Shown here in pieces: positions 8,411-40,977 of a DNA stretch of 64,000 nucleotides. Position numbers and translations under genes: made by a program. The notes below the pieces were generated by a model that ran no database searches, was not told the origin of the DNA, and saw only the letters and a program-made list of their open reading frames with translations. The first letter of the stretch is position 1, and the number at the start of each line of letters is the position of its first letter. The stretch comes from Granulicella paludicola (GTDB taxonomy: Bacteria > Acidobacteriota > Terriglobia > Terriglobales > Acidobacteriaceae): positions 434,001-498,000 of the forward strand of contig NZ_JAGSYC010000025.1 of NCBI RefSeq assembly GCF_025685545.1. The letters are read 5' to 3'.

Positions 8411-9964
8411 TTAGTTCGCGCTGTTGGTCAGCGCGTCCATGTAAGCCACGTCCAGCACGGTGCCCTGGATGGTGATGTTGTAGTTGTTGATTTCCGTACC
8501 AGCTGCCGGAGTCGTGTTGTACCCAGGATCGCGGGGATCGGTGATCGCGCCGCCGGTGTAGAAGGCGTGGATCTGACCGCCATAGGCTGTAAAGACCTTA
8601 TGGAAGCCCTGTACCCAGCAGATGCCCGTCGCGCTGCCGTAGTAATAGAGGTTGTCGTCGGTGTTGGGGTACGCAACGGTGACAGCAGAGGCGGGCGTGC
8701 CGGTGTTCTGCGTCACTGCTGGAACGATCTGCGCTGTCGGCGTGCTCGTTCCGTTCAGGGTCACCATGGTCAGGCAGTTATAGTTGCCGGCCTGGTCCGT
8801 AACGCCCTTGGCATTCAGTTCCTGGGTCGCTGTATACGCTCGCACTCCATTGGCGCACTGTGTCGATCCGACCCAGAGGGTATTGTCATCCGCGAACAAC
8901 AGGCGCGTATGTGTGCCGTCGGAGATCGAAACCGGCGAACCGGCCTTGTAGGTGGACAGATTCAGCAGGGTCAGGTTACCTGCAAACAAGCCGCTACCCT
9001 GGAGTTGTTGCCCCGCCAGATAGAGATAGTTAGAGTCCGAAAGCGCGACCGTGACTCCCCCAGGGATCAGCACCGGATTCGCCACCGGCAACGTCGCCAT
9101 CGCCGATACGTCAGGGCTCGCTGTGGGAACGTTGTTGAAGTCGAGCGTCGACATCTTCAGAAACGCCACGCTGGCAGTCGTTCCACCCGCTTCGGGACCG
9201 CTGTTCAGAACGTCAGCTGTGGTGCCGTCGAGAGAGAAATACACATCGTGCGGACGGTCAAAGGTACCGTTCACCGGTACGATGCAGAAGGTCGGCAGCA
9301 ACAGCGGTTCGCAGTCCACGGATCCGGGGGGAATCACAGGCGTCGTAGTCGCGGGTAGCTTCACCACGCGATAGAGCGTGTTGGAGTTCTTGACCATCGC
9401 CAACATCACGGTATTGCCCTGGGAGACAACGACCTTATCCACGTTCGGCAGGCTGAACGCGTAGCTGCCTCCGCCGTAGGACATCACAAACTGCCCGGTC
9501 GTTTGCGAGGCACCGAGGAAGGTGACTCCGTTTACTGAAGCAGCTGCGGAGGGGGCGTTCGCGCCGAAGCTGACCGCCGTACCGGAGCTGGTTTCCTTGC
9601 TGTAGTTGATGGTCGTCAGCGCGCCATCGTTAGAAGAGAAGACATAGCCGGTGGTCTCTTCCGGATAGTTGATGATCTGGACGGGGTCCAGTTCGGAATA
9701 GCCAGAGATCGTAAAGTGCGTGATCGTGTTCTGAACGTTGCCACGCAGATCGCGCTCGCCATCCAGCATCTCCAGACCGCCGCTAACACCGGTGGTGTAC
9801 GCAGCCATCACGCGATAAAGCAGCCCGCTGGGCGGGGTCGCACGGCCAGCAGTGTTGTACTCAGGGTAGTAATACAGCGGCGCGCGGCAGGAGGAGAGCG
9901 CCAGGGTAGACGCAGCCAAAAGGAGGCCGACATAGAGCCGGACAGAGACACTTCGAATCTTCAA
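8411..9964 (-). CDS. large lipoprotein, probable beta-propeller, unknown function
   Basis: About 517 residues. A lipoprotein signal (VGLLLAASTLALSSC) places it on the outer or inner membrane, and it is rich in short beta-strands, Gly, Thr and Asn. Segments such as YVFSSNDGALTTINY, VMLAMVKNSNTLYRVV and LLFADDNTLWVGS recur at similar spacing, suggesting a WD40/YVTN-like propeller (inference). TTG 9964 is preferred because GGAG stands nine bases upstream and it opens directly with MKIRSV; TTG 9979 is the alternative. It lies just upstream of bshB1, but nothing ties it functionally to thiol metabolism. I do not recognise a named family. Confidence 0.75.
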   Translation of the reverse strand: MKIRSVSVRLYVGLLLAASTLALSSCRAPLYYYPEYNTAGRATPPSGLLYRVMAAYTTGVSGGLEMLDGERDLRGNVQNTITHFTISGYSELDPVQIINYPEETTGYVFSSNDGALTTINYSKETSSGTAVSFGANAPSAAASVNGVTFLGASQTTGQFVMSYGGGSYAFSLPNVDKVVVSQGNTVMLAMVKNSNTLYRVVKLPATTTPVIPPGSVDCEPLLLPTFCIVPVNGTFDRPHDVYFSLDGTTADVLNSGPEAGGTTASVAFLKMSTLDFNNVPTASPDVSAMATLPVANPVLIPGGVTVALSDSNYLYLAGQQLQGSGLFAGNLTLLNLSTYKAGSPVSISDGTHTRLLFADDNTLWVGSTQCANGVRAYTATQELNAKGVTDQAGNYNCLTMVTLNGTSTPTAQIVPAVTQNTGTPASAVTVAYPNTDDNLYYYGSATGICWVQGFHKVFTAYGGQIHAFYTGGAITDPRDPGYNTTPAAGTEINNYNITIQGTVLDVAYMDALTNSAN

Positions 9965-39065: not shown

Positions 39066-39358
39066 GGGTTAAGTTTACTTGAAGAAAGGCAGCGAGTAGG
39101 AATCGGGCAGCGGAGTGGACGAGGCTGCCGGTCTGAATCGTGAATAGAAGGTGACGGCAGGTGGTTTTGCGGACATGTTTTTCACTGCGTAAACAGGGGA
39201 CGCATAAGTCGTTGTGGATATAGGGAACCGCCTTCGTAACTAGTGTCGACAGATTTTGATGTTGGATTGGCAGCGGGATCGGTGAAACTAACATCCGAAG
39301 TACCACAGCGGAGATACGAATTCCGCGCGTGGACAAGTTTGAGGAGCGTACTCGGGTG

Positions 39359-39529
39359 ATGGCTAGTTTGATGCTGGTAGCGGCTGTGATGGTGTCACTG
39401 GCGAGTGGTGTGCTGGTGGCTTATGGCGTTTGCTATGGGATGTTCCAAGTGTTTCGCATCCATAGCCTCTCGGTAAAGGCAGCACGCGAACGGGCCACGG
39501 TGCAGACCGCGGTTCTCGCCGAACAGTAG
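39359..39529 (+). CDS. small single-pass membrane protein
   Basis: A 56-residue protein with one hydrophobic segment (LMLVAAVMVSLASGVLVAYGVCYGMF) and a basic C-terminal tail (KAARERA). ATG 39359 has GAGGAG about 12 bases upstream; a GTG at 39329 would add ten charged residues. It is divergent from uvrA and lies directly upstream, on the same strand, of the six-unit hairpin array. It could be co-transcribed with that array. No family is assigned. Confidence 0.5.
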   Translation: MASLMLVAAVMVSLASGVLVAYGVCYGMFQVFRIHSLSVKAARERATVQTAVLAEQ

Positions 39530-39604
39530 TTTCCTCTCAACTGGTCTCTGCTTCAGCAGAGGCGAATACTTCCGTTGTTCTTTGATTCTGTGCTGGAGCC
39601 AGCA

Positions 39605-40034
39605 GGGTGCCTGTGGATTAGGGTGCCTGACCTTTCTGCGTCTGTTTGAGCGGCGGCTCCGGTGTTCCCTTGATTGGGTGAGCTTGTGAACGGTGCCTGT
39701 GGAACAGGCAGCCCGACCAAACTGCGCCCGCAGCTTGACGACTGAGTTCTTCTGATCGCATGCAAACGCTGAACAGCCCCTGTGGAATGGTGGGCTTCAG
39801 GCAAGTGCGTTGGTAGGGCGATTGTTTCAAGGTTTTTTTGATGAAGAGGCGTGATCTGGGCGGTCCCTGTGGAACAGGGGACATCAGTTCAGTGCGTCTG
39901 TAGAGCGGCTTGGCGAGGTCAGACGGGTGCCTGTGGAACGGGTGGCTCGACCTTGCTGCGTCTCTAGCTGCTCAACCTGTTCGCAAACGCGAAAAGGTGC
40001 CTGTGGATCAGGCACCTTCACTTCGCTGCGTCCG
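39605..40034 (+). repeat. array of six hairpin units with fixed internal spacing; candidate ncRNA
   Basis: Each unit has CTGTGGA (at 39611, 39697, 39780, 39867, 39931, 40001) within a hairpin, followed by a conserved [CG]TGCG motif that begins exactly 25 bases later in all six (39636, 39722, 39805, 39892, 39956, 40026). Hairpin arms differ but stay paired: TGCCTGT-GGA-ACAGGCA in unit 2, CCCTGT-GGA-ACAGGG in unit 4, a 10-bp arm in unit 6. Units 1 and 5 need G-U pairs that exist only in a plus-strand RNA. Units start 64-87 bases apart and spacer sequence is unrelated. No open frame covers the region, which lies between convergent genes. The unit geometry is directly seen; an RNA role is inferred. 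Confidence 0.8.
39990..40018 (-). terminator. Rho-independent terminator of the STN gene, formed by array unit 6
   Basis: AAGGTGCCTG (39994-40003) pairs perfectly with CAGGCACCTT (40009-40018). On the minus strand the stem is followed by a U-run (bases 39992-39995). It lies 33 bases after the stop of the gene at 40051-40977. Confidence 0.7.
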
Positions 40035-40050
40035 AATTCGTTGCGCTTGA

Positions 40051-40977
40051 CTACTGGGGCGGAGGGGTAGTTGTCGTGCTGTTGGACTGGGCCGCTTTGG
40101 CAGCCTGCATCTTCAGAAGCTGTTGGTAGACCTGGTCTGCCGTGAGGGGGCTGGTGTTGCTGGGAGTCTGATTGGGTGTGTCGACGATGCCCTGAGCGGG
40201 TTGCTGCGCGGTGGAGGGTGTGGGCAGGGAGTCGGTCGGGACGGAGTTCGTCGTCGGAATCTGTGAGGCCGTCGGTGTGACGTTGTTGGGATCGCCGAGC
40301 GGGTTGTTCAGAGGTTGCGGCATACTGGGCGGGCCACCTGCGTTGGGCTGCTGCGATGAGGGTTGACCTGCCTGCACCGAGGGGCTGGTACGGACGGCCT
40401 CGGGCAGCGGCGTCGTCCGCAGGTTCGCAGGCGCGACTGGCAGATCCATGCCGAGGTCGGCCTCCTGCGCGGTGACGGGAGGTGCTGCGCCGCCGGCGCG
40501 GGGGCTGAGTGCGAGTTCGGTCGGGCGGTGGTTGTCGTCTTCGCGGATGAGCATGTTGACGCCAGTGCCGTCGAGCAGCGTGGCAAGGATGGTGGAGGCG
40601 TTGCCCGGACCGTAGCTGCCGAATACGCGCTGTTCTTCTACGCCGCCGGTGATCTTCATGCCGGTGATGTGGGCGATGCTGCTGAGAATCTGATGAAGGC
40701 TGGAGTCGTTGGCTCGGACGGTGAGCTGCTCGTTGACGAAGACGACCTCGGCATGGTGCGGCCGCGTGGCGACGACGGCGGGCGCAGTGCCGTTGATAGG
40801 CGCTGTCATGTTGGCTTCAGGCGTACCGGTAGCCGGCAGACTGGTGGGCGCGGTGGCTGGAAGCGTCTGGGCCGCTGCCGCCAGAGGGACGAGCGAGAAG
40901 AGTAGAGACGCGGCGAAGGTGATGGGGCGGTACATGCTGACGTTGGGACGTATGGCGGCGGCGGAGGGTAGCCTCAT
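40051..40977 (-). CDS. exported STN-domain protein with Pro/Thr/Gln-rich tail
   Basis: A 308-residue protein. A signal peptide lies in FAASLLFSLVPLAAAAQ (ATG 40977 or the inner ATG 40935; no SD decides). Residues 75-150 form one STN domain (secretin/TonB short N-terminal fold): VFVNEQLTVRANDSSLHQIL, then ITGMKITGGVEEQRVFGSYG and LLDGTGVNMLI. The remaining 160 residues are a low-complexity tail rich in Pro, Thr, Gln and Asn. There is no secretin or TonB barrel. It may be a periplasmic accessory of a type II/IV system or of a transporter (inference). Confidence 0.75.
   Translation of the reverse strand: MRLPSAAAIRPNVSMYRPITFAASLLFSLVPLAAAAQTLPATAPTSLPATGTPEANMTAPINGTAPAVVATRPHHAEVVFVNEQLTVRANDSSLHQILSSIAHITGMKITGGVEEQRVFGSYGPGNASTILATLLDGTGVNMLIREDDNHRPTELALSPRAGGAAPPVTAQEADLGMDLPVAPANLRTTPLPEAVRTSPSVQAGQPSSQQPNAGGPPSMPQPLNNPLGDPNNVTPTASQIPTTNSVPTDSLPTPSTAQQPAQGIVDTPNQTPSNTSPLTADQVYQQLLKMQAAKAAQSNSTTTTPPPQ

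Follow-up and report, generated by a model that had tools for sequence, protein, structure and literature searches.

A six-unit hairpin array between convergent genes of Granulicella paludicola, possibly a lineage-specific multi-hairpin RNA

A noncoding stretch between two genes of Granulicella paludicola holds six units of 42 nt at 39605-40036 (positions in the 64-kb window, the whole stretch of DNA that was analysed), which we tentatively read as a lineage-specific, plus-strand multi-hairpin RNA that may bind a candidate partner repeatedly. The units lie on the plus strand at 39605-39646, 39691-39732, 39774-39815, 39861-39902, 39925-39966 and 39995-40036. CTGTGGA starts at 39611, 39697, 39780, 39867, 39931 and 40001, and a [CG]TGCG motif begins exactly 25 nt past each of them, placing TGCG at 39637-39640, 39723-39726, 39806-39809, 39893-39896, 39957-39960 and 40027-40030. 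These positions agree with the first-pass annotation, as does its statement that the spacing of the units is variable (64-87 nt; successive distances of 86, 83, 87, 64 and 70 nt). The array is not a chance occurrence. With at most one mismatch, the spaced motif was found 9 times in the window, compared with a mean of 2.05 and a largest count of 7 in 100 dinucleotide shuffles, and the six exact copies in the window are the array itself.

The units are 71-78% alike (mean column identity), and the columns identical in all six lie at offsets -3, 0-7, 11, 16, 20 and 27-30 from CCTGTGGA. Outside the unit, column identity was mostly 0.13-0.4, with a few higher columns; the sole invariant flank column, at -31, is probably due to chance. 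Conservation is a property of the unit. The spacers (44, 41, 45, 22 and 28 nt if the unit is taken as 42 nt) had been described as unrelated, which is nearly so: 3 of 15 pairs, leader included, showed weak similarity at p 0.011-0.024, uncorrected, in 1000 shuffles, for example GCAAACGC, common to spacers 2 and 5. The proposal that selection acts on the unit is moderately supported, as the invariant columns are confined to the unit and the spacers differ. If a palindromic stretch was duplicated in tandem and its copies then drifted without function, this would explain the weak residual similarity among some spacers, the presence of the array in only one of the genomes searched and an intergenic gap wider than in the genus loci measured. 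We regard this explanation as rather unlikely, since invariant columns persist inside the unit while the spacers have drifted nearly to background, and neutral drift would not be expected to leave an 8-mer and TGCG intact in all six copies.

Placing the units side by side gave a refined hairpin model, with a pair between offsets -3 and 16 and a single bulged base in every 3' arm. This hairpin of 7 pairs has a UGGAN loop and fits all six units, with cores at 39607-39626, 39693-39712, 39776-39795, 39863-39882, 39927-39946 and 39997-40016. GGA is thus present in every apical loop of the refined model, as the first-pass annotation had proposed; the arms that it named are also present, including the perfect 10-bp arms of unit 6 (39994-40003 and 40009-40018). 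As plus-strand RNA the refined model forms 42 of 42 standard pairs; the count falls to 34 of 42 if G-U pairs are disallowed, and likewise if the wobbles permitted are those of a minus-strand RNA. The argument for the plus strand rests on the eight pairs that depart from Watson-Crick pairing, every one of which is G-U in plus-strand RNA. Units 1 and 5 indeed depend on plus-strand G-U pairs, as had been noticed, and unit 3, missing from that earlier list, needs them too.

When the columns of the 3' arm were shuffled, 144 of 20000 trials reached the 42 pairs; among exact permutations of whole arms 48 of 720 did so, a borderline result. The summed hairpin energy was -62.3 kcal/mol on the plus strand and -43.5 kcal/mol on the minus strand. 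Column shuffling gave energies as low as that of the plus strand in 10 of 3000 cases, and permuting the arms did so in 24 of 720; the minus strand gave an equally strong column-shuffling result (12 of 3000), so that shuffling alone does not pick the strand. A drift simulation, with the choice of bulge free and uncorrected, returned 0.00005, 0.0004 and 0.0018 at transition fractions of 0.5, 0.67 and 0.8. An unbulged model with 8 pairs gave a non-significant count of paired cells (68 of 500) and a weak covariation score (49 of 500). Folding energy of single units was ordinary in five of the six (z -0.50 to +0.77) and low in unit 6 (z -3.55), and the z value of the whole 521 nt was -1.43 on the plus strand and -0.72 on the minus strand. 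Plus-strand hairpins are therefore moderately supported, by the 42 of 42 pairs and by energies below those of column shuffles, the other tests being borderline or negative. The support is only moderate because the bulge model was fitted after the six related units had been seen and because units 3 and 4 share changes.

In a fold of 520 nt, five of the six plus-strand units had a hairpin core-pair probability of at least 0.87, and three of the six minus-strand units one of at least 0.9. The same fold speaks against the earlier description of TGCG as a free single-stranded tail, because 19 of its 24 bases are predicted to be paired more often than not. This predicted pairing, together with the fixed offset of TGCG, is the best argument for a different explanation, in which the array consists of six bipartite GGTGCCTGTGGA + TGCG sites in duplex DNA, clustered at one chromosomal place for a DNA-binding protein. 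Such sites would fit the motif offset, which is fixed to the base in six of six units although the stems differ, and the nearly invariant 5' arm. They leave all eight one-strand G-U departures of the 3' arm unexplained, however, and the motif is without excess elsewhere in the genome. The exact 31-nt motif has six copies in the 4.96-Mb genome, all within the array; one-mismatch places elsewhere numbered 10, compared with 6 for a reversed-pattern control, and looser-pattern places 6, compared with 6. We consider the DNA-site explanation unlikely, but one to be taken seriously. The array also does not read as a REP or other dispersed repeat, since its exact copies are all in one place and near copies are not above the control. 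Elsewhere in its own genome, the array had no DNA match better than E 0.049. A match to R1, the model of the array unit that was used for genome searches, was seen at C19:366782 of the same genome, within a 727-aa ORF. At another place in this genome (C17:619655-619706; 9656-9707 of the locus around dnaA, L171), a terminator-like hairpin beyond the end of a yidC-like gene lies between CCTGTGG and TGCGTC; as the pattern count equals that of the control, this site is probably a chance occurrence.

The array lies in a gap of 521 nt (39530-40050) between convergent genes, in agreement with the first-pass annotation. Upstream of it, on the same strand, is a 56-aa ORF (39359-39529, plus strand), and beyond this ORF lies uvrA on the minus strand. 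On the other side is the convergent gene of a 308-aa protein (40051-40977, minus strand), which belongs to no Pfam family and had a match in each of the 28 genus genomes, among them the own one; we take the first half of this protein, judged by eye, to resemble an STN-type domain. The 56-aa ORF encodes a probable membrane protein, with a sub-threshold MMPL match as its only Pfam hit, and was matched by tblastn (E < 1e-7) at 23 of 27 other genus loci. The uvrA start motif was found beside the 308-aa gene at 22 of 28 loci, own included. If the array is cotranscribed with the 56-aa ORF, it would be the 3' UTR of that ORF. The gap to the end of the ORF match was about 12 to about 432 nt at the 23 loci, values that partial matches inflate, compared with 525 nt in the own genome. 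It was about 15 nt in G023 and G007, the two genomes with the most similar 308-aa homologues (61% identity in G023 and, over part of the protein, 60% in G007); their uvrA starts are 87.8% identical to the own one over 304 aa and 90.8% over 239 aa, respectively.

The convergent position and the strong hairpin of unit 6 would also suit hairpins that end or protect transcripts at the junction, as terminators or 3'-end stabilisers. We find this role improbable: no intrinsic-terminator-like site was found at 39300-40200, the fixed loop and TGCG exceed the needs of such a role, and the sister loci manage without an array. A scan of 39300-40200 for sigma-70-type promoter-like sites likewise found none (these two types were the ones scanned). 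There is no coding signal in the array. Several of its reading frames are tempting by eye, and the lowest count for a single frame was 93 of 500 column shuffles. However, 233 of 500 such shuffles did as well as the best of the six frames, and the spacings are not all multiples of three; we therefore do not read the array as a coding repeat.

Several hairpins in one stretch with GGA in their loops are also a feature of CsrB, CsrC and RsmZ, and possible titration through many sites would be a further likeness. A true CsrB/RsmZ-type RNA that titrates CsrA, the link proposed in the first-pass annotation, would account for the GGA in each loop of the refined hairpin. It is nevertheless largely refuted and very improbable, because none of 21 genomes, including the own, 100%-complete genome that carries the array, yielded CsrA (PF02599), while the PF02599 control was positive in 3 of 14 named genomes (Escherichia coli, Bacillus subtilis and Thermotoga maritima). 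The array also had no Rfam match, either at the gathering cut-off in the window or at E up to 5 over 39300-40200. We know of no CsrB RNA that combines a fixed 5' arm with TGCG at a fixed offset. By analogy, the array may work like CsrB without being a member of that group.

The array was compared with other known repeat systems. Like CRISPR arrays, it alternates palindromic repeats with unrelated spacers, but CRISPR repeats are near-identical and their spacers even, whereas the units here are 71-78% alike and the spacers uneven (22-45 nt). RNAs of type III toxin-antitoxin systems (ToxI-like) consist of contiguous, near-identical repeats adjoining a ToxN-type toxin gene. The repeats of the array do not fit this description, with units 71-78% alike and 22-45 nt apart. 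A Pfam scan of the five neighbouring proteins found no toxin family. Clusters of DnaA boxes (datA/DARS-like) resemble the array in that its minus strand has six TCCACA cores, and origin-like CTGTGGA clusters occur in some genomes of the phylum. In contrast to such boxes, none of the six units has T at the second position of the box, as judged by eye. The consensus TTWTNCACA, which may differ from the box of this host, had 2 matches in the window, none of them in the array, and 0 in 12 kb around the own dnaA. We therefore do not read the units as DnaA boxes, although this is not final. The own dnaA lies near ORFs that look like rpmH and yidC.

Searches with R1 found no second array in 119 other relatives, 396 other genomes of the order or 395 other genomes of the phylum; these sets overlap, and weak matches may have been lost where more than 40 genomes were searched, because the filters were then stricter. 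Single matches were present in 76 of the 119 relatives at E up to 1, and where several were listed for a genome they were on separate contigs or widely spaced. With the limit set at E 0.01, 10 of the 396 order genomes had a match, and with E 0.003, 5 of the 395 phylum genomes, always one per genome. The best unit-like match outside the own genome (32.4 bits; 1501-1542 of locus L147, genome G686) has a hairpin and CTGCGTCTG in a single copy. This match and one of 27.2 bits (L044, genome G011) are unexplained single matches that we took as chance, and two others (L148 and L149) sit in what reads as infB coding sequence. Without filters, R1 found no array at 29 other loci, the best match (18.4 bits) being at a gene end of G023. 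By blastn at E 1e-5, the array was unmatched in 72,556 plasmid and 50,697 phage records.

A two-unit pattern, a weak test because it demands exact letters, was found in 7 stretches of the genome_contigs collection and 8 of IMG/VR; R1 gave 3 weak matches in 2 of these 15 loci and no array. A genome_contigs scan with the 308-aa protein confirmed 0 of 49 stretches despite the match in 28 of 28 genus genomes, so that this collection or the method may cover the genus poorly. Scanning IMG/VR for uvrA yielded 7 loci, which were left out of the analysis. Within 1100 nt beyond the 308-aa gene, a 9-mer was present three times at four of 28 loci, namely the own locus, L094, where the repeat is a 7-bp tandem, and L077 and L078, where the words are GC-rich and mostly within uvrA. 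Among the other genomes, three CTGTGGA motifs at array-like spacing occurred in 2 of 396 from the order and 26 of 395 from the phylum. The places listed resemble clusters of origin-like appearance, tandem or coding repeats and, in one case, a CRISPR. Over 19 loci taken from these searches, R1 gave one weak match (12.7 bits, L169). One locus (L182 1408-1995, genome G617) holds a 69-bp tandem repeat of 8.5 copies, 93% alike, that contains CTGTGGAT and TGCGG and has no R1 match. The array thus appears specific to this lineage, as far as sampled. The first-pass annotation had itself named absence of the unit from relatives as a result against its reading, and the lack of an array there does count against it. 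A limited literature search turned up no such array.

The G023 match lies at 2342-2385 of locus L074, inside the 3' end of the homologous gene and on an array-like strand and side, with an E value of 0.18 in its genome and 0.0027 over 57.7 kb. By eye, the own 308-aa gene holds a similar stretch in phase. Codon-shuffled controls were as good in 168 of 200 cases for the own gene and 20 of 200 for G023; the best of 28 loci (L082) gave 3 of 200. We reject an origin of the array from the 3' end of the neighbouring gene, which these controls do not support, although G023 is still suggestive.

Returning to the multi-hairpin RNA, which we propose tentatively, it would be a small RNA of its own or else form the 3' UTR of the 56-aa ORF. 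A binding module would correspond to one unit of 42 nt, in which a 7-pair bulged hairpin with a UGGAN loop and a 5' arm that hardly varies is followed, at a fixed offset, by TGCG. The 3' arm drifts within wobble pairing while the 5' arm and the loop stay nearly constant, which suggests that the latter two are what is read. With six such modules, one RNA could engage a protein or RNA partner at several sites and thereby titrate it, as CsrB does with CsrA, the partner here being other than CsrA. Transcription, strand, partner and titration are what we infer here, from the invariant columns in the unit beside differing spacers, the complete plus-strand pairing, hairpin energies below shuffles, the G-U departures, the 520-nt fold, the missing coding signal and the lack of motif excess in the genome. 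Counted against this RNA are the failure to find promoter- or terminator-like sites at 39300-40200, the ordinary energies of five units and of the 521 nt as a whole, the non-significant unbulged model, the borderline arm permutation, the post hoc bulge model, the equally strong shuffling result of the minus strand, the lack of a homologous array and the predicted pairing of most TGCG bases. That the array represents an undescribed class of multivalent regulatory RNA, with UGGA-loop hairpins and fixed-offset TGCG for a non-CsrA partner, expanded in a convergent junction of one lineage, is a bolder and doubtful proposal.

If the units are DNA sites or a decayed duplication, the array would be of local interest only. 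If it is a titrating RNA, a CsrB-like design would have arisen without CsrA, and the array would be a ready bait for its partner. Its restriction to one genome would then mean that a regulatory RNA has been caught early.
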